DNA from: Aliarcobacter trophiarum LMG 25534
GTDB taxonomy: Bacteria > Campylobacterota > Campylobacteria > Campylobacterales > Arcobacteraceae
DNA: 64,000 bases
NCBI RefSeq assembly: GCF_003355515.1
Contig: NZ_CP031367.1
Location: forward strand, 620,001 to 684,000
Direction: 5' to 3'
This document shows, in pieces, positions 42,612 to 58,870 of this stretch. A program made the position numbers and the translations under genes. The notes beneath the pieces were generated by a model that worked only from the letters and a program-made list of their open reading frames with translations, did not search any database and had not been told where the DNA came from. The number at the start of each line of letters is the position of its first letter. Within the stretch, counting starts at the first letter, position 1.

Positions 42612-43658
42612 CTAATTTTGTGCGAAGCTAAAATATTCATCATCTAAAAAAGTAGTTTTTCTTCCTTTTTTTTCTACTTTTAAATATTTTGTATATTTTT
42701 CTAGTGTAATATTTAGATTTTTATGTCCTAACATTTGAGAAACCCAAAGAGGATCTTCTTTATTGCTTAGCATATTACTAGCAAAAGTATGTCTAGTTTG
42801 ATATATGCTTCTTTTTTCTAAGTTTAGACTTTTTAAAAGTTTATGCCACCCTTTTGCCAAATCTCCTGAATGAGAAAAGATTTTTCCACTAGCTCTTAAA
42901 AAAACATTTTGGCTAAGACCAGTAATTTTTCTTTGTTCTCTTAAAAAAAATTCACATTGTGGAAGCATATCTATTACACGGAAAGAACTCTTCGTTTTTG
43001 GGTTTTTTGTGATACCTAAAGTTCTAGTTTTATTTATAGTTATAGTTTTATTTTCAAAGTCTATATCTTTCCATTCTAAAGCTAATATTTCACCAGTTCT
43101 TGCACCTGTAAAAAATGCAACTCCTAAGAAGTGTTTATAAGGATTTTCTTTATAAGTTAAGATTAAATCTATCTCTTGCAAAGTAAAGGGTTTCATTTCA
43201 TAATCACTTTTTAAAGTTGGAAATTTAACTATAAAAGGAGTTGCTTGTATATATCCATCTATAATTGCATTTTCAAAAGCTGGTATTAATATCCCAGTTA
43301 CACAAGTGTTTAAAGTTGTTCTATCTTTAAAAGTAGAGTACCAATCTTTTATTTTTGCTGGAGTAATTTCATGTGGATATTTTTTATCAAAAAAAGGTAC
43401 AATTCTACTTTGAAATAAGCTGTAATAACTTCTTATAGTTGTAGGTTGAAGTTTTTTCTCTTTCTCTTCTAAAACTTCCCTACAAAATTCTAAAACTGTT
43501 TTTCCTTTTGTTTTAACATTAAATTTTTTATAGAACTCTGTATTTTTATATTGATTTTCTAGTAGTTTCCTATTAGTTGGAGTATCTTGTAATTTACTAG
43601 ATGTTCTCTTTCCATTTATATCAATATATAAAATACCATTTCTATTGTAAAGTCTCAT
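42612..43658 (-). CDS. Tyrosine recombinase / integrase
   Basis: The 348-residue protein has an SAM-like N-terminal core-binding region (about 55-150) and a catalytic domain with TGARTGEILALEWKD (catalytic Arg), a lysine beta-hairpin region (KTKSSFRV), TRHTFAS, MLGHKNLNITLEKY and the nucleophile tyrosine in the YTKY end. The first histidine of the HxxR box is Tyr here (YQTR), a variant seen in some active integrases. It marks one end of a genomic island and is transcribed toward the copper receptor. It ends 104 bp from that gene. Confidence 0.92.
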   Translation of the reverse strand: MRLYNRNGILYIDINGKRTSSKLQDTPTNRKLLENQYKNTEFYKKFNVKTKGKTVLEFCREVLEEKEKKLQPTTIRSYYSLFQSRIVPFFDKKYPHEITPAKIKDWYSTFKDRTTLNTCVTGILIPAFENAIIDGYIQATPFIVKFPTLKSDYEMKPFTLQEIDLILTYKENPYKHFLGVAFFTGARTGEILALEWKDIDFENKTITINKTRTLGITKNPKTKSSFRVIDMLPQCEFFLREQRKITGLSQNVFLRASGKIFSHSGDLAKGWHKLLKSLNLEKRSIYQTRHTFASNMLSNKEDPLWVSQMLGHKNLNITLEKYTKYLKVEKKGRKTTFLDDEYFSFAQN

Positions 43659-44801: not shown

Positions 44802-44902
44802 AAGTTTTTTTCCTTTTTAATTCACATTTTTTGAATAAACTTACAAATTATTTAAGAAACTAAAAATATGATTATTAATCCTTATTTTGGTATTCTTTAA
44901 TT

Positions 44903-44974
44903 TAAAATGTAAATAAATGTAAGTTTATATATTTTACATACATTTTGTAGTGACATTATACATACTAAATGTAA
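44903..44974. promoter_or_regulatory. ATGTAA half-site cluster between excisionase and repressor genes
   Basis: ATGTAA occurs at 44907-44912, 44917-44922 (10 bp apart, one helical turn) and 44969-44974, with the reverse TTACAT at 44934-44939. This is the divergent control region of the island. A cooperative repressor, most simply the 45036 protein, could bind here. The first two half-sites are copied at 52465-52480. Function inferred. Confidence 0.5.
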
Positions 44975-45035
44975 GTAAGTCAATATAAAAGTATGCAATT
45001 TTATAAATTTATCAAAATATATGTAAGGATTAAGG

Positions 45036-45398
45036 TTGGACATAAAAAATGCAATAGAAGAATTAAAGAATTTTTTTAATGTAAAAACACATAAAGAATT
45101 AGCAGATGCTTTGGGTGTTACGCAATCTGCAATAGATGCTTGGAAAAATAGGGGAAATTTACCAGCAAAATATGAGAAATATCTTCATGATATAAACATT
45201 CAAAAAACAGGGCATAAGGTTATAGGAAATGGTAATTATGTTGGAGTTAAAAATTTTATAATTAATGAAAAATTATCTACTTTAAATGAAGATGATATTC
45301 AATTAATTGAAAATTTTAAAAAGCTATCTCCTAAAAAACAAGAATATTATTATCATAGAATCAAAGCTGATTTGATAGAGGAAGAATTAGATAAATAA
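45036..45398 (+). CDS. Phage CI-like repressor of the island
   Basis: The 120-residue protein has an N-terminal helix-turn-helix (HKELADALGVTQSAIDAWKNRG, about 19-40) of the phage CI-repressor group and a C-terminal half with no peptidase motif. It starts with TTG at 45036, with GGATTAAGG just upstream. It is divergent from the excisionase-like gene and leads the defence operon, the STAND gene following after 29 bp. It likely represses both directions. Its last codons recur at 52512-52560. Confidence 0.75.
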   Translation: MDIKNAIEELKNFFNVKTHKELADALGVTQSAIDAWKNRGNLPAKYEKYLHDINIQKTGHKVIGNGNYVGVKNFIINEKLSTLNEDDIQLIENFKKLSPKKQEYYYHRIKADLIEEELDK

Positions 45399-45427
45399 AA
45401 ATTAATTTAATAGGGGAAAATTAAAGA

Positions 45428-51162: not shown

Positions 51163-51819
51163 ATGAATAATCTTGAAAATACGAATTTAAATGAAACTGT
51201 TGCAACAACAAATGTGGCAAATAAATATAACTTAAAAAAGATAGACACTGAATCTATTAAAAATAATGTTTTAATGAATAATACATTTTATGCTTTTAAA
51301 AAAGCTGGGAATTGTAGAATTTGTTTATCGTTACCAGAGTTTGGAGCTATTTTTATTGGAAGTATAATTGTAGGAGCAATTTTTTCTATTGTTCTACCAA
51401 GCATTATCTCAATCATAATATTTATAGTATTATTTGTATATGGTGTAATTTTTCTAAGAAATAAGAATAGTAGAGCAGCTTATGATAATTATTTAGAAAA
51501 CCAAATGATAGGAATATATACTAAAGATTTGGCTGTATTAAATTTTGTACCTGAAAATATAGATTATCAAACTATTAAAATGATTGAAGTATCTGGAGAG
51601 AATTATGATATTGCAAAATATAATTTAATCAAATCTGCTTTTTATTTGGGAGCTGATGGAGTAATAAATATAACTCATAGTTCAACAGCCTATGCAACTT
51701 CAACTGTTACTGGAAGTATTAGTACTAACTCATCATCAAGAGTTACTGGAAATATTAATACTGATACAAAAATAACAACTAATGTATATATGCAAGGTAT
51801 GGCTATAAAATTGGTTTAA
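51163..51819 (+). CDS. Membrane protein with YbjQ-like C-terminal domain
   Basis: The 218-residue protein has a polar N-terminus, two membrane helices (about 68-88 and 90-105) and a soluble C-terminal domain with YDIAKYNLIKSAFYLGADGVINI, which resembles the YbjQ/heavy-metal-binding pentamer family, followed by a Ser/Thr-rich segment. Its role is unknown. It lies 28 bp after avcD in the defence operon with an AAAGGA ribosome-binding site, so a role with the defence genes, perhaps a membrane effector, is inference only. Confidence 0.5.
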   Translation: MNNLENTNLNETVATTNVANKYNLKKIDTESIKNNVLMNNTFYAFKKAGNCRICLSLPEFGAIFIGSIIVGAIFSIVLPSIISIIIFIVLFVYGVIFLRNKNSRAAYDNYLENQMIGIYTKDLAVLNFVPENIDYQTIKMIEVSGENYDIAKYNLIKSAFYLGADGVINITHSSTAYATSTVTGSISTNSSSRVTGNINTDTKITTNVYMQGMAIKLV

Positions 51820-52358: not shown

Positions 52359-52460
52359 ATTTATTATATATCAAAATTGATAATAAGTTCTATTTTGTTA
52401 CAAATTAAAAATTTAAGAATAAAAAATAATCTAAAAATTATATTCTAGTAATTTATATTG

Positions 52461-52487
52461 TAAAATGTAAATAAATGTAAGTTTATA
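52461..52487. repeat. Copy of the island repressor control region (27 bp)
   Basis: These 27 bp are identical to 44903-44929, the part of the divergent control region that holds two ATGTAA half-sites 10 bp apart. Here they stand upstream of the second module. They would let the island repressor bind before DUF4917 and KAP genes. Confidence 0.85.
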
Positions 52488-52511
52488 AATATTTTAGAAT
52501 GATAATTATGT

Positions 52512-52560
52512 AAGAATATTATTATCATAGGATAAAAGCAGATTTGATAGAGGAAGAATT
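52512..52560 (+). pseudogene. Remnant of the island repressor 3' end
   Basis: These 49 bp match 45340-45388, the last codons of the repressor, at 46 of 49 positions and keep its reading frame (EYYYHRIKADLIEEEL), but a TAA stop precedes them at 52511 and the frame continues into the DUF4917 gene. About 410 bp of promoter-proximal and coding sequence is missing compared with the intact copy. It is a deletion scar of a second repressor copy. Confidence 0.85.
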
Positions 52561-52573
52561 GAGTTCATTAAGA

Positions 52574-53662
52574 ATGGAATCGAATAAAAATTATGAATTT
52601 ATTGGTACTTATGATGAAGTTCTTAAAAGAACTGAAAATAGTTTAAGATATTTACTATTAGGAAATGGATTTAGTGTAGCATACGATAAAAATAAATTTT
52701 CATTTAAAAATTTATTCGATTATGCTAAGAAAAATGTAATAAGTCATAATTCTCCTATAATGAAACACTTTGAAGAATTACAAAGTTATGATTTTGAAAT
52801 CATAATTAAATATTTAGAAAATGCATTATTAGTTTTAAAAAATTATCCAAAAGAAAATCAAAGTAATGAAATTTTAAATAATATAAAACAAGATATTAAT
52901 TCTTTAAAAGAATATTTAGTAATGGCTATAACTAAATTACACCCAGAATTTTTTTATGATATAAAAAAAGCTGAATATATAAAATGTATAGATTTTATAA
53001 AAGAATTTAATGGAATATTTACATTGAATTATGATTTATTGTTGAATTGGGTTATTTTAGAATATTTGGATAATAATAAATTACAAAATAATAGATTAAT
53101 TGTAGATGATGGTTTTAGAGGAAGAAATAAATTGATTTATAACCATATTAATAGATTTATTTATTTTAGACAAACTATTTTTTATTTACATGGAGCATTA
53201 CATTTGTTTTTTGATGGAATAGATGTTATTAAAAATTATTACGATGAAAACCAAAAAGCTACATTACTTGAACAAACTAAATTTAATATACAGATAGATA
53301 ATTATCCAATTTTTGTATCTGAAGGAGATGCTAAAAAAAAGTTAATGAAAATTAAAAATAATTTATATTTAAATTTAGGATTACAAAAGTTTAAATGTCC
53401 TAATTTTTCAGATGGTAGAAATTTGAGATATATACTGAATCAAGAATATTTTAAAAACAGAAGTTTAGTTATATTTGGAACAATTCTTGATAAAGATGAA
53501 CATATAGTAGATGCTATTGTCAAAGGTAGATATAAAAATATTTATATTGGAATACGTAATAAGAATAAAATATATAGTTGTAATCATATTATTTCAAAGT
53601 TAAAAGATACTGATAAAAATTTATTTTTTTACGATTTTACAACTGTAAATGTTTGGAGATAA
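52574..53662 (+). CDS. DUF4917 SIR2-like protein
   Basis: The 362-residue protein has the DUF4917/SIR2-like motifs LLGNGFSVAY near the N-terminus, FTLNYDLLLNW in the middle and FYLHGALHLF after it; these form a nucleotide-binding Rossmann site in SIR2-like families, many of which deplete NAD in phage defence. The ATG at 52574 is chosen because the frame before it is the repressor remnant; TTG at 52544 with GAGGAAGAA nearby is an alternative. Its stop overlaps the possible start region of the KAP gene. The nuclease or NADase activity is not shown. Confidence 0.7.
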   Translation: MESNKNYEFIGTYDEVLKRTENSLRYLLLGNGFSVAYDKNKFSFKNLFDYAKKNVISHNSPIMKHFEELQSYDFEIIIKYLENALLVLKNYPKENQSNEILNNIKQDINSLKEYLVMAITKLHPEFFYDIKKAEYIKCIDFIKEFNGIFTLNYDLLLNWVILEYLDNNKLQNNRLIVDDGFRGRNKLIYNHINRFIYFRQTIFYLHGALHLFFDGIDVIKNYYDENQKATLLEQTKFNIQIDNYPIFVSEGDAKKKLMKIKNNLYLNLGLQKFKCPNFSDGRNLRYILNQEYFKNRSLVIFGTILDKDEHIVDAIVKGRYKNIYIGIRNKNKIYSCNHIISKLKDTDKNLFFYDFTTVNVWR

Positions 53663-53666
53663 AATC

Positions 53667-56087
53667 GTGAGAACTATGATGAAAGAAGGAAACTTTGGAA
53701 CAGTTGCTATTGATGGTGGATATTTAGAAATTTTATATAATAAAAAAATAATAAAAAAGGTAAAAGTTCCTGTTCCAAATTATCAAGCTGAAAAAAATAG
53801 AGATAGTGTAGTTGAAAATGATGATGGTTTCAGTGATAAATATGGAAATGAATATTCAGTTTATGTATATTCTAGTATGTATGGTATAGATTATACAATT
53901 GAATTAATTCATTCAAAGGATGAATTAAAAGCAGAAGAATTTATTGATAGTATAATTGTTAAATTTAATGATGGTGAAGAATATTTAAATAATAAAAGAA
54001 ATCCAAATTGGAATATATTTGAACTTATTTTAGTATTAGATTTTTATCATAATAATTATCCAAATATTCCATCTAAAAATAGTTATGAAATAAAAGAACT
54101 TAGTTCTAAATTGAGAAAGTATAATGAGTTAATTGGAATAAAAATAACTACCTCTCTTCGTAATGAAAATAGTGTAATTATGAAATTAGAAAATTTTAGA
54201 GCTTTAGATTCTAGAGAAGAAGGGGAAGGTTTAAGAAATATTTCAAATCTTGATAAAAAAGTTTGGAATGAGTTTTTTGGAAATATTGATAAATTAAAGA
54301 TTATGGCAGAATTTATTAGTAAAGCAATTGAAAGAAAAGATATTGAAATATTAAAAAATACTAATATAGATAATGTTGCTTTTCTTGAAGAATCTAATAT
54401 TCATAAAATGGAAAATCTTTTTGGGGTAAGCTCTAAACACACAATAAATTATAATAACATTGGTATAAATAACTATAATAATATATTTGATAATCATAAA
54501 CCTAAATTAAATATTGAAAGTATTACAAGAATATTTGCAAATTATGTTTTAAATTATAAAGCAAGCCATACTAGTACAATAATTGGAATATTTGGTAAAT
54601 GGGGTAGAGGTAAAACTTTTTTTTACAATTATTTAAAATACAATATTAGACAACAAAAAGAAGATAATAAACAAATCTATTTCTGTAAATTTCAACCATG
54701 GAAATATCAGGAACAGAATAGTGCATGGGCTTTTTTATATAAAAATATATTAGATAATTTTCTTAAGCATAAAAAAACAGAAACTTCGAAAAAAATATTA
54801 GCATGGGAATTAAAATTAAAAAAAATATTTAATAGAAAATGTTGGATAGATAAATTTATACATTCAATAATTAATTCTATAAGTTTATCTAAACTATGGA
54901 AAATATTTTTATTAAATAGTAAAAGAATAGGTGTTAATAACTTATATTTTGGTTTAATTAGTATAGTTTTTATTGGATTAGCTGTATATTCAAGTTTAGT
55001 TTTTAAAATTGATTTTTTAGTTTGGGTATTTGGAATATTGAGTGTTCCGGGGTTAATATTCTTGCTTAAATCATATACTTTTTTTATGAAAAGTAAAAAT
55101 ACTGTAAGGATATTAATAAATAATTATTTTAAAACAAAAGATTATTCAGATTATTTAGGCTTTCAAAATGAAATAGAAAGAGAATTAAAATTTCTTATTA
55201 ATACATATATTGAAAAAGATGAAAAATTAATACTATTTATAGATGATTTAGATAGATGTAATGAAGAGATGATAATTGATATTATGGATAGTTTAAGATT
55301 AGTTTTAGAAGATTATGAAATAAATTCAAAGATAACAATTATTGTTGCAATAGATGAAAGAATCTTATTAAAATCTATCAAATATAAATATTTCAAAGAA
55401 AATAATGAAATATGTTCAAAAGAATATATAGAAAAATTTTTCTTAGTAGGTGTTAAATTAAATCAATTATTAGATGATGATATTGAAGAGTTAGTTAAAT
55501 CATATTCAGAAAGTCTTAATATTATAAGTAATTTAAATACAGAAGAAGAAAATACAGACAATGGAAATACAGAGAATGGAAATACAGAGAATGGAAATAC
55601 AGACAATGGAAATGCAGACAATGGAAATGCAGACAATGGAAATACAGACAATGGAAATACAGACAATGGAAATACAGACAATGGAAATACAGACAATGGA
55701 AATACAGACAATGGAAATACAGACAATGGAAATACAGACAATGGAAATATTGAAATCCTTAGTAAAGATGAAATAGTATATATAAATAAATTATTAATAA
55801 AAGAGAATATAGACACTCCTAGAAAGATAAATATGATGATACATAGATATTTATTGTTTAAGTCATTCATTTTTAGTCATACTAAATTAAAAAACTATAA
55901 TTATAAAATATTAATTGAATTAGTTATATATATAAGAAAAGAAGAAGTATTGAATCATTTAATACAACTTTGTTCTGTAGATAAAGAAAAAATCATTATA
56001 AAAGATTTAGAAGATAATGAACAAGAGATAGAAAAAGATGATTTAAAAAAATTAATAAATTATGCAGAAATGGTATCTCCATTTTAA
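53667..56087 (+). CDS. KAP-family P-loop NTPase with restriction-type N-terminal domain
   Basis: The 806-residue protein starts at GTG 53667, with GGAG 8 bp upstream. Residues 112-200 (NPNWNIFELILVLDFYHNN, SVIMKLENFRALDS, LDKKVWNEF) resemble a domain found N-terminally in HNH and other restriction enzymes. A KAP NTPase follows with Walker A GKWGRGKT (310-317), two membrane helices between the motifs (about 430-475) and Walker B LILFIDDLDRC (521-531). A 65-residue Asn/Asp/Gly repeat array lies after Walker B. KAP NTPases are membrane-tethered defence or partition ATPases. It overlaps nothing and is coupled to the DUF4917 gene. Confidence 0.75.
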   Translation: MRTMMKEGNFGTVAIDGGYLEILYNKKIIKKVKVPVPNYQAEKNRDSVVENDDGFSDKYGNEYSVYVYSSMYGIDYTIELIHSKDELKAEEFIDSIIVKFNDGEEYLNNKRNPNWNIFELILVLDFYHNNYPNIPSKNSYEIKELSSKLRKYNELIGIKITTSLRNENSVIMKLENFRALDSREEGEGLRNISNLDKKVWNEFFGNIDKLKIMAEFISKAIERKDIEILKNTNIDNVAFLEESNIHKMENLFGVSSKHTINYNNIGINNYNNIFDNHKPKLNIESITRIFANYVLNYKASHTSTIIGIFGKWGRGKTFFYNYLKYNIRQQKEDNKQIYFCKFQPWKYQEQNSAWAFLYKNILDNFLKHKKTETSKKILAWELKLKKIFNRKCWIDKFIHSIINSISLSKLWKIFLLNSKRIGVNNLYFGLISIVFIGLAVYSSLVFKIDFLVWVFGILSVPGLIFLLKSYTFFMKSKNTVRILINNYFKTKDYSDYLGFQNEIERELKFLINTYIEKDEKLILFIDDLDRCNEEMIIDIMDSLRLVLEDYEINSKITIIVAIDERILLKSIKYKYFKENNEICSKEYIEKFFLVGVKLNQLLDDDIEELVKSYSESLNIISNLNTEEENTDNGNTENGNTENGNTDNGNADNGNADNGNTDNGNTDNGNTDNGNTDNGNTDNGNTDNGNTDNGNIEILSKDEIVYINKLLIKENIDTPRKINMMIHRYLLFKSFIFSHTKLKNYNYKILIELVIYIRKEEVLNHLIQLCSVDKEKIIIKDLEDNEQEIEKDDLKKLINYAEMVSPF
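55551..55745 (+). repeat. Tandem array of 13 units of 15 bp within the KAP gene
   Basis: Thirteen in-frame 15-bp units encode NTDNG-type repeats: one NTDNG, two NTENG, one NTDNG, two NADNG and seven identical NTDNG. The last seven are identical at DNA level, which marks recent expansion. Each gain or loss changes the protein by five residues and never the frame. Confidence 0.97.
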
Positions 56088-56097
56088 AAGGATAATT

Positions 56098-57225
56098 TTG
56101 TTTTATAATATTGAAAATAATAAATTACAAACTAAATATATAGAATATTTAAAACTAACAGGCTCTTTATCAAGACTATTTTCAGATAGTTTAGCACCTT
56201 ATTTATACTATCGTGCTGCTGAAAATATATTTTGCTTAGGATTTGAAGCAGAAAATTTATCTAGATCTGATATTTCTATTGATGCAAAAAAAGAAAATAT
56301 TGGCTTTGGATTAAAAACTTTTCTTCATGGCAATGGAAAAACATTTCAAAAAGTTGCTGAGTTTAATGCAATTAGAGATGAATATACAAGTAAATCAGAT
56401 AAGGAAATTATAGATTTTATTTCTCAAGCTAGAAATAAAAGATTAGATATCTGTTTAGAAGGATATGGAGTTGATAGTTTAATATACCATTGTCTAACTA
56501 GAAGTGATAATCTAATATCTATATATGAATTTCCTATGGATAAAGTTCAAATTGATAGTATTAAAAAGATTGTTAGAAGTAAAAATACTATTCAATTTGA
56601 AGATGGGATGAATGAGTATTCTTTTAATCTATCAAAAAGTACTTTATATAAAAGATTTATTTGTAAAGATAGCTTAGAAGATATAAAAGTAGATATTTTA
56701 GAAAATCCATTTGAATTATTAGCAAATTTAAATAAATCTGAAACATCTATATTAAAAGAAGTTAGTACGTATCCTTTTATATATTTGCCTTTATATGCTC
56801 CAAGTTCACAAGATTTAGAACCAGCAATTGCAAGTGGTATAAATCAATGGAATGCAGGTGGACGAGATAGAAATCAAGATGAACTATATATTCCTGTTCC
56901 TGCTTGGATACATAAAAAGTTTGAAGGATTTTTTCCTAATAACAATGATGATAAATTTGAATTAGAATTACCAAATGGTAATGTATTAAATGCAAAAATG
57001 TGTCAAGCTGGACAAAAAGGACTTATGTCAAATCCTAATAAAGCTTTAGGTAAATGGGTTTTAAGAGATGTATTAAAAGTACCAGTTGGAACTTTAGTTG
57101 ATAGAAAATACCTTGATATGATAGGTATTGATTCCGCCATTGTGTTCAAATTGAATGATACAAAATATAAAATTGATTTTGCATCTAGTGGAAAATTTGA
57201 AGAATTTAAAGAACAATTTATATAA
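56098..57225 (+). CDS. Type II restriction endonuclease with C-terminal B3-like domain
   Basis: The 375-residue protein is started at TTG 56098 with AAAAGGA 5-6 bp upstream; the longer frame from 56062 lies inside the KAP gene. The N-terminal half has DAKKENIGFGLKTF (62-75), a PD-(D/E)xK-like D...GxGxKTF pattern with K73, as in several B3-linked restriction enzymes (NgoFVII-type group). Residues 260-375 (ELYIPVPAWIHKKF, LSMSNPNK-like and VGTLVDRKYLDMIG) look like the B3/EcoRII-N DNA-binding fold. It sits beside a cytosine methyltransferase, which supports a restriction-modification pair. Recognition site unknown. Confidence 0.7.
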   Translation: MFYNIENNKLQTKYIEYLKLTGSLSRLFSDSLAPYLYYRAAENIFCLGFEAENLSRSDISIDAKKENIGFGLKTFLHGNGKTFQKVAEFNAIRDEYTSKSDKEIIDFISQARNKRLDICLEGYGVDSLIYHCLTRSDNLISIYEFPMDKVQIDSIKKIVRSKNTIQFEDGMNEYSFNLSKSTLYKRFICKDSLEDIKVDILENPFELLANLNKSETSILKEVSTYPFIYLPLYAPSSQDLEPAIASGINQWNAGGRDRNQDELYIPVPAWIHKKFEGFFPNNNDDKFELELPNGNVLNAKMCQAGQKGLMSNPNKALGKWVLRDVLKVPVGTLVDRKYLDMIGIDSAIVFKLNDTKYKIDFASSGKFEEFKEQFI

Positions 57226-57235
57226 AGGATAAAAT

Positions 57236-57628
57236 ATGCCTGAAATAGGTAATAGTTACATAGTTACATTAAAAGAAACTTATATTATGTGGGGTGAATA
57301 TAGACATACCGATTCTAGAGAAAGAATTATAAATGAAGTGTATTTACCTATTCCTGCTGATAAAGCCAGAGAATTTAATATTTATAATAGCAATAGAACA
57401 GGAGCTAATACAGAATATGATGTTATTACTTCTGATAATTTTTTAATTAATGGAAAATTAAAAGCTCAAGGTTCTTCTACAGCAGGATCTGAATATGCAA
57501 AAAATTTGTCTGGTTCAGGAAATTTAAGACTTTTAGCTCCTTGGATGAATCATATAGAGGCTAAAGTTGGTGATAAAATTAAAATTGAATGGATAAGTTC
57601 TACAAAAATAAAACTTACTAAATTATAG
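57236..57628 (+). CDS. Small B3-like DNA-binding protein of the restriction system
   Basis: The 130-residue protein has a segment (NEVYLPIPADKAREF, about 33-47, then NTEYDVITSDNFLINGKLKAQG) parallel to the C-terminal domain of the upstream endonuclease (ELYIPVPAWIHKKF). No catalytic motif is visible. It begins 10 bp after the endonuclease with a good AAAGGATAA site, so it is probably a second specificity or accessory subunit. The convergent methyltransferase ends 5 bp after it. Confidence 0.6.
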   Translation: MPEIGNSYIVTLKETYIMWGEYRHTDSRERIINEVYLPIPADKAREFNIYNSNRTGANTEYDVITSDNFLINGKLKAQGSSTAGSEYAKNLSGSGNLRLLAPWMNHIEAKVGDKIKIEWISSTKIKLTKL

Positions 57629-57633
57629 AAGAG

Positions 57634-58725
57634 TTAAATAAACTTTCTTAACTCTACATCATACTCTTTAATGCAATTATTTGGATTGTATTGAGGAGTT
57701 TCGCCTTTTAATAAAAATGCAATTCTCTCTGCAAAATGATAAATTCCAACAGGAGGAACTGCATTTCCTATTTGTCTTCTTACTTCCGTTGTACTTCCTT
57801 GAAAATTATAATCATCTGGAAAACTTTGTAATCTAGCTCTTTCTCTATTTGTTAATGGTCTATGTTCTTTGAAGTGATATCCCCAAGTTCCACCACCACC
57901 TGATGCAATAACAGTATATGCAGGTTCATCTTCATGTAATCTTCTATAAATATTTGACATTAGACCTTTTATTGCATAAGGAGTATTTTCTACAGCTTTA
58001 AAGTTTTTTCCTTGAGGAATATGTTTTAATCTTTCTACTACTTTATCACTTACTTTTAAGTGTTGAGTATGAATACAATTTTTAGGTAAATTTTTAAAAG
58101 CTTCTTTTGAAGTAATATGATTATTTTTATGTGTAAATTCTGGAGGAATAAATTCTGTTTTTATATCATTTCTAATACCAATAAAAAGTACTCTTTCTCT
58201 TAATTGTGGAACACCAAAATCTGCAAAGTTTACTAAGAAAATTTTTAACTTATAACCATCTAATTCAAATCTTTTTTTAATTATTTTTACTGCTTCACCT
58301 TTATTTGCTGATAATATTCCTTTTACATTTTCAGCAATAAAAACTTTTGGTTGAAGTCGTTCTACATACTTTGCAAAACTTTCATAAAGTTGTCCATCTT
58401 TATCATTTTTTAATCCTTCTTGCTTTCCCACAACAGAGAATGTAACACAAGGAAAACCACCTAAAAAAACATCATATATTTTAGGTTTATATTTTAAAAC
58501 TTCTTTTTCTATATTTTCAGTAATATCTTTATGCAGTAATTTTGTATTTTTAAAATATTTTTTATTTTTATCTAATGAATTAATTGCATCTTTATTGTAT
58601 TCTAAAGCATATTCTGTAGTAAATGGTAATTTAGTAAAATATTTTCCTAGAAAATCAAAATCTCCGTGAAATCCTATGTCTAAACCACCAGCACCTGTAA
58701 ATGTAGAAAATATTTTAAAATCCAA
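57634..58725 (-). CDS. DNA cytosine-5 methyltransferase
   Basis: The 363-residue protein has the m5C methyltransferase motifs: I (FTGAGGLDIGF), IV (GGFPCVTFS, catalytic C93), VI (ENVKG near 129), VIII (QLRERVLF) and X (GNAVPPVG). It protects the host DNA against the adjacent endonuclease. It starts with TTG at 58725, with AAGGT 7 bp upstream, and is convergent with the B3 genes. Target-recognition domain is at about 190-300. Specificity is unknown. Confidence 0.93.
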   Translation of the reverse strand: MDFKIFSTFTGAGGLDIGFHGDFDFLGKYFTKLPFTTEYALEYNKDAINSLDKNKKYFKNTKLLHKDITENIEKEVLKYKPKIYDVFLGGFPCVTFSVVGKQEGLKNDKDGQLYESFAKYVERLQPKVFIAENVKGILSANKGEAVKIIKKRFELDGYKLKIFLVNFADFGVPQLRERVLFIGIRNDIKTEFIPPEFTHKNNHITSKEAFKNLPKNCIHTQHLKVSDKVVERLKHIPQGKNFKAVENTPYAIKGLMSNIYRRLHEDEPAYTVIASGGGGTWGYHFKEHRPLTNRERARLQSFPDDYNFQGSTTEVRRQIGNAVPPVGIYHFAERIAFLLKGETPQYNPNNCIKEYDVELRKFI

Positions 58726-58856
58726 TTATGATACCTTTTTATATTTTTTGTGAATTTTACTATTCCCAAGCTGCGATTTTGCTGAATTAAAATAGTTTAT
58801 ATGTTTTTATTTATAGGAGTTGACAGATCAAATAGATATTTAATTATTAAAATATT

Positions 58857-58870
58857 TTGATTGCAATCAA
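58857..58870 (+). promoter_or_regulatory. Perfect FNR/CRP-type box upstream of the chemoreceptor
   Basis: TTGAT-TGCA-ATCAA is a perfect FNR consensus palindrome. Its centre at 58863.5 lies 41.5 bp before the start site (58905) set by the -10 hexamer TATACT at 58893-58898, the class II activator position. The chemoreceptor ATG follows at 58926. Confidence 0.65.

Follow-up and report, generated by a model that had tools for sequence, protein, structure and literature searches.

A short segment between the two defence-gene blocks of a genomic island in Aliarcobacter trophiarum LMG 25534 is, with a probability of roughly 0.78, the remnant of a second repressor control region, which derived from the same mobile-element family as the intact, resident repressor of the island and lost the body of its repressor gene by deletion. 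Hereafter we refer to this segment as the relic, and to the whole 64-kb stretch of DNA analysed (620001-684000 of the 1.92-Mb genome contig) as the window; the coordinates of the features are collected in Table 1.

The island extends from an integrase gene (42612-43658, minus strand) to about 58850. Its right border is sharp, as the homology of relatives to the chemoreceptor gene region begins at 58843-58865 in 8/8 loci, and no obvious direct repeat flanking the island as attachment sites was detected in a search with a 13-bp seed. From the left end, the minus strand carries in order the integrase (Phage_integrase, 72.8 bits; PHROG match, integrase), a 99-aa ORF, a 133-aa ORF, and an excisionase-like protein (HTH_17, 28.1 bits; PHROG match, excisionase). 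Then follow a conserved box, the CI-type repressor, a STAND NTPase (DUF4062-like start, NB-ARC), an Mrr-type nuclease, a dCTP-deaminase defence protein, two small ORFs, and the relic. Behind the relic lie DUF4917, a KAP NTPase, a type II restriction gene, a small NgoFVII-C-like gene and a cytosine methylase (minus strand), which we call module 2. The presence of both a tyrosine integrase and an excisionase-like gene identifies the island as an integrated mobile element. No type IV secretion or relaxase genes were found among the window ORFs at 42-59 kb, and hence it does not qualify as a complete integrative conjugative element.

Table 1. Features of the relic, the resident repressor region and module 2, in window coordinates.
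Feature	Position	Strand	Remarks
Box upstream of resident repressor (reference copy)	44903..44929	+	Same 27-mer as 52461-52487; 5 more exact copies of the 22-bp core, in 4 related genomes
Resident repressor, intact, 120 aa, TTG start, phage CI-type HTH	45036..45398	+	Pfam Phage_CI_repr 26.8 bits (cutoff 22)
Conserved 3' block (repressor tail, stop, leader of next gene)	45301..45421	+	84% DNA identity to G016 over 121 bp; repressor body without DNA similarity
Degenerate left flank of relic	52398..52460	+	Within a 103-bp, 77.7% match to 44841-44936; gapped p 0.007
Relic box	52461..52487	+	Exact repeat of 44903-44929
Spacer, 24 bp, containing the deletion junction	52488..52511	+	
Relic of repressor 3' end, codons for EYYYHRIKADLIEEEL	52512..52560	+	46/49 identical to resident (45340-45388)
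DUF4917 gene (PADLOC candidate PDC-S21)	52574..53662	+	Pfam DUF4917 147 bits; PDC-S21 E 1e-85; alternative starts TTG 52559, 52544
Rest of module 2: KAP NTPase, type II restriction gene, NgoFVII-C-like gene, cytosine methylase (minus)	53649..58725		

The relic consists of two arms, which keep the order and orientation of the resident repressor region and between which the middle is absent. The 27-mer TAAAATGTAAATAAATGTAAGTTTATA is present exactly (27/27) in both regions, and the repressor 3' end recurs behind it, at a distance of 24 bp in the relic versus 410 bp in the resident (44930-45339). The earlier note had given the same repeat, the same 46 of 49 matches and the same two distances, and its figures proved exact. 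It had taken the segment for what a deletion left of a second repressor copy; our comparisons supported this as well, with about 350-400 bp lost, and the reading as a deletion scar appears well supported. When the relic stretch was searched against the 64-kb window by BLASTN, the tail arm matched at 87.5% over 64 bp (E 1e-16) and the box arm, 52398-52496 versus 44841-44936, at 77.7% over 103 bp (E 2e-13), followed by a third-ranking match with an E value of 0.001. With up to 3 mismatches allowed, the 22-bp core of the box was found in the whole 1.92-Mb genome as two exact copies and one 3-mismatch site. Outside the box, the left flank is weakly similar to the resident in ungapped comparison (15/26 and 30/60, p about 0.03; gapped value in Table 1). 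In shuffle tests the spacer showed borderline similarity to the resident DNA (p 0.047), and its matches to the equivalent DNA of G016, G010, G082, G007 and G027 were not significant (p 0.38-0.72). By eye and in BLAST extensions the spacer had resembled the promoter core of an allele of the G016/G010 type, an origin that failed in this latter test. A reading of the spacer as the beginning of another repressor ORF (ATGATAATTATGTAA), with a frame of just 4 codons, was likewise set aside.

Related elements show the same division into conserved ends and a variable middle. In addition to both copies here, the 22-bp core ATGTAAATAAATGTAAGTTTAT recurs without mismatch in G007, in G010 (two copies), and in G016 and G027, where the repressors that follow it differ. 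In the relatives (L041, L042, L043, L045, L047, L048, L049, L068 and L069) it is located between the excisionase-like gene and the repressor, and variants of it adjoin the integrase start in six genomes (G010, G007, G082, G079, G032 and G023). Over 11 loci, the commonest companion of the box was a repressor (10/11), followed by an integrase (8) and an excisionase-like protein (6). The box-sharing repressors differ in their DNA-binding domain, which is CI-type in the window and G016, HTH_19/HTH_3 in G010 and G082, and of no recognised kind in G032. A light literature search found no published description of the 22-bp box. At the DNA level, the window and G016 are alike only in two blocks, one of 30 bp at the box (97%) and one of 121 bp at the tail (84%); the latter spans the stop codon into the leader of the next gene, downstream of which the cargo differs. 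The repressor proteins of the two share 20/26 amino acids in the tail and 21/89 in the body. Comparison of the window with G010 and G032 gave the same picture, with box and tail alike and the body not. As box and tail are conserved in the relatives and the body is variable, the relic thus represents the two fixed ends of such a locus with its variable middle gone. No related island was seen that carried the short segment without repressor homology, the finding by which the earlier note would have been refuted. As a separate observation, one element is present twice in the G010 genome (G010:C1, at about 1.27 Mb and 1.83 Mb; L042 and L043), the copies being oriented oppositely and having an identical set of matches to box, repressor, excisionase and integrase.

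The differences between relic and resident point to the parent of the relic. Within the 16 shared codons, 4/4 base differences are silent (AGA>AGG, ATC>ATA, GCT>GCA, and a junctional TTA>TTG). Such a result arose in 0.16% of random draws in a simulation (P about 0.0016), a soft figure given the small sample and the position of one of the four changes at the junction. Since all differences are silent, the parent therefore seems to have diverged while it still encoded a working repressor, and the relic probably descends from a diverged functional allele and not from a recent or decaying copy of the resident. The genome contains the codon pattern of the tail at two sites, namely the repressor gene and the relic. 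Searches of 104 family genomes, of 399 order genomes (tail codon pattern) and of viral contigs, with each species represented by one genome, yielded no intact copy of the parent allele. Relatives of the repressor or the box were found neither in plasmids, phages and viral contigs nor in a first pattern scan of genome contigs.

The statement of the earlier note that the relic frame runs into the DUF4917 gene was correct. After a TAA at 52511-52513 the frame is open to the DUF4917 stop at 53662 (382-codon open frame), the stop codon of the tail itself having been lost; but with a stop at the first codon of the frame, little of the relic is translatable. Start candidates within the open frame are TTG 52544, TTG 52559 and ATG 52574. 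A translated truncated repressor is disfavoured by the stop and by the absence of a start before TTG 52544. Matches of DUF4917 homologues begin at about residue 10-13, counted from ATG 52574, and TTG 52559 is preceded by GAGGA 4 bp upstream; ATG 52574 is therefore the likely start of DUF4917, with TTG 52559 as the alternative. The protein keeps LLLGNGFS, NYD and HGAL motifs that are reminiscent of SIR2-like proteins. Among the publications searched, one mentions DUF4917, in annotating a plasmid of Arcobacter cryaerophilus (PMC6690266). The family is widespread (356 loci). Among the best 80 of these 356 loci, no box, tail, repressor or KAP was present within about 6 kb, and DUF4917-KAP was discarded as a widespread pair.

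The closest counterpart of module 2 lies in a conjugative element of G016, a different species (loci L041 and L071), which has the same gene order, with KAP 33%, the restriction gene 91% and the methylase 96% identical. KAP relatives were found in none of the other genomes of the family besides G016 (104 searched). This element resembles the island in a related excisionase-like protein and its neighbouring gene, the box, the repressor tail, and the restriction-methylase end. It differs in the repressor body and the cargo, lacks DUF4917 and the relic, and contains VirB4 and a relaxase, which are absent from the window island. In front of its KAP gene are a 171-aa ORF and a relative of the window ORF at 51163, and no DUF4917, repressor or relic precedes its KAP-restriction-methylase end. 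Among the genomes compared, neither DUF4917 nor the relic junction was found behind an intact repressor. The joining of a whole second element of the same family, which the earlier note had proposed, is plausible and fits the silent differences and the mosaic relatives; against it stand the absence of DUF4917 behind any intact repressor found and the G016 end without a repressor. Given that end, acquisition of a smaller piece comprising repressor and DUF4917 by an existing row of cargo would explain the data as well as the joining of a complete repressor-DUF4917-KAP-restriction-methylase element. Two further features of this comparison were noted. The ORF at 51163-51819 encodes a membrane protein with a 47% relative in the G016 element cargo, upstream of the KAP gene in both; and between 56062-58725 and L071 10377-13368, the step from the restriction gene (91%) and methylase (96%) to the neighbouring KAP (33%) forms a sharp mosaic border.

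From these comparisons we propose the following origin. Elements of the family carry a conserved box that separates a small CI/HTH-type repressor from a divergent excisionase-like gene, and variable cargo follows immediately on the last 20-odd codons of the repressor; its body and the cargo are swapped between elements, while box and tail persist. A piece of DNA with a box, a second repressor allele and DUF4917 may then have arrived downstream of the first defence module. In the order of events that we infer, the body of the second repressor would have been deleted afterwards, over a stretch (about 350-400 bp) that began directly behind the box and stopped 17-18 codons short of the end, leaving the box next to DUF4917. 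Since one repressor suffices for an element, the loss of the body may be neutral; alternatively, it may have brought module 2 under the direct influence of the former start region of the repressor. In the latter case, the remaining box could act as a start signal, possibly repressor-controlled, for DUF4917-KAP-restriction gene, and the scar could drive module 2, with the resident repressor perhaps acting on it in trans.

Three other explanations were weighed. Chance similarity in AT-rich DNA draws on the low-level AT-rich matches to the relic stretch in every genome searched and on the weak significance of the left flank outside the box; the E values of the two arms compared with that of the next window match, and the shared order and orientation of the arms, led us to reject it for box and tail, and its probability is negligible. 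A tandem duplication of the resident repressor region inside the island, followed by deletion, would require no second element. The box is identical in both regions, the spacer is borderline similar to the resident DNA, and the relic tail matches that of the resident better than those of G016 (64 bp at 78%) and G010 (51 bp at 86%). However, the tail differences are all silent while the noncoding flank is 22-50% diverged, a pattern of two selected alleles and not of a decaying recent copy, and we consider such a duplication rather unlikely.

The third explanation is compatible with the deletion reading and adds a present function to it: the box would have been retained as an operator through which the resident repressor controls module 2 in trans, selection having removed the redundant repressor only. 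That the box is the best conserved part of the relic, that it occurs with repressors, and that a similar box adjoins the integrase start in relatives, so that more than one box per element is normal, would all be expected from it. In contrast, repressors sharing the box carry different DNA-binding domains, the conservation of a box that several genomes share exactly would be expected in a recent relic even without selection, and promoter-like matches at the relic were not above chance (5 found, 4.8 expected). We therefore hold this function to be a tentative possibility. A wider version, in which the 22-bp box is a family-wide control site serving repressors of different DNA-binding classes and the integrase start, and the scar a repressor-less start controlled in trans that places two stacked defence modules under one repressor, is doubtful.

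Temperate phages and conjugative elements have mosaic immunity or control regions, in which repressor genes are exchanged between conserved flanks. The family of the relic resembles these in its short conserved blocks around a variable repressor, its divergent excisionase-like gene, and its CI-type HTH repressor; in the present case, by contrast, the second copy survives as a relic without a body, embedded in the cargo of a chromosomal island. The finding is thus a mosaic mobile element with a gene remnant, which is of a known kind, and the relic shows that such islands are patchworks, the product of real but fairly ordinary mobile-element evolution. Beyond this, the scar provides direct sequence evidence of defence cargo accumulating behind a mobile-element repressor, with box and tail blocks as fixed ends and body and cargo changing, and it points to a putative conserved control site in Arcobacteraceae conjugative elements. 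RptR, a repressor of a defence island that has conserved promoter sites and heads exchangeable defence cargo (PMC12255303), is likewise a small repressor whose gene immediately precedes varied defence operons and has a conserved site in its promoter; it differs in its fold and in its 6-bp palindromic site tested by binding assays, whereas the window repressor is CI-like, with a putative site. WYL-domain/BrxR regulators are also reported to head exchangeable defence cargo (PMC9122601, PMC9122589), and the window repressor differs from them in having no WYL domain by Pfam.

Two minor observations concern other parts of these elements. Other repressor relatives contain an internal stop codon (G022:C13:3757-4074, G102:C1:2029106-2029357 and G082:C7:60728-61036), which suggests that repressor decay may be recurrent in these elements. 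Finally, the KAP NTPase gene contains at 55545-55755 more than 10 copies of a 15-bp unit (NTDNG repeats), arranged in tandem and in frame; this array, absent from the G016 homologue, is possibly a length-variable site.
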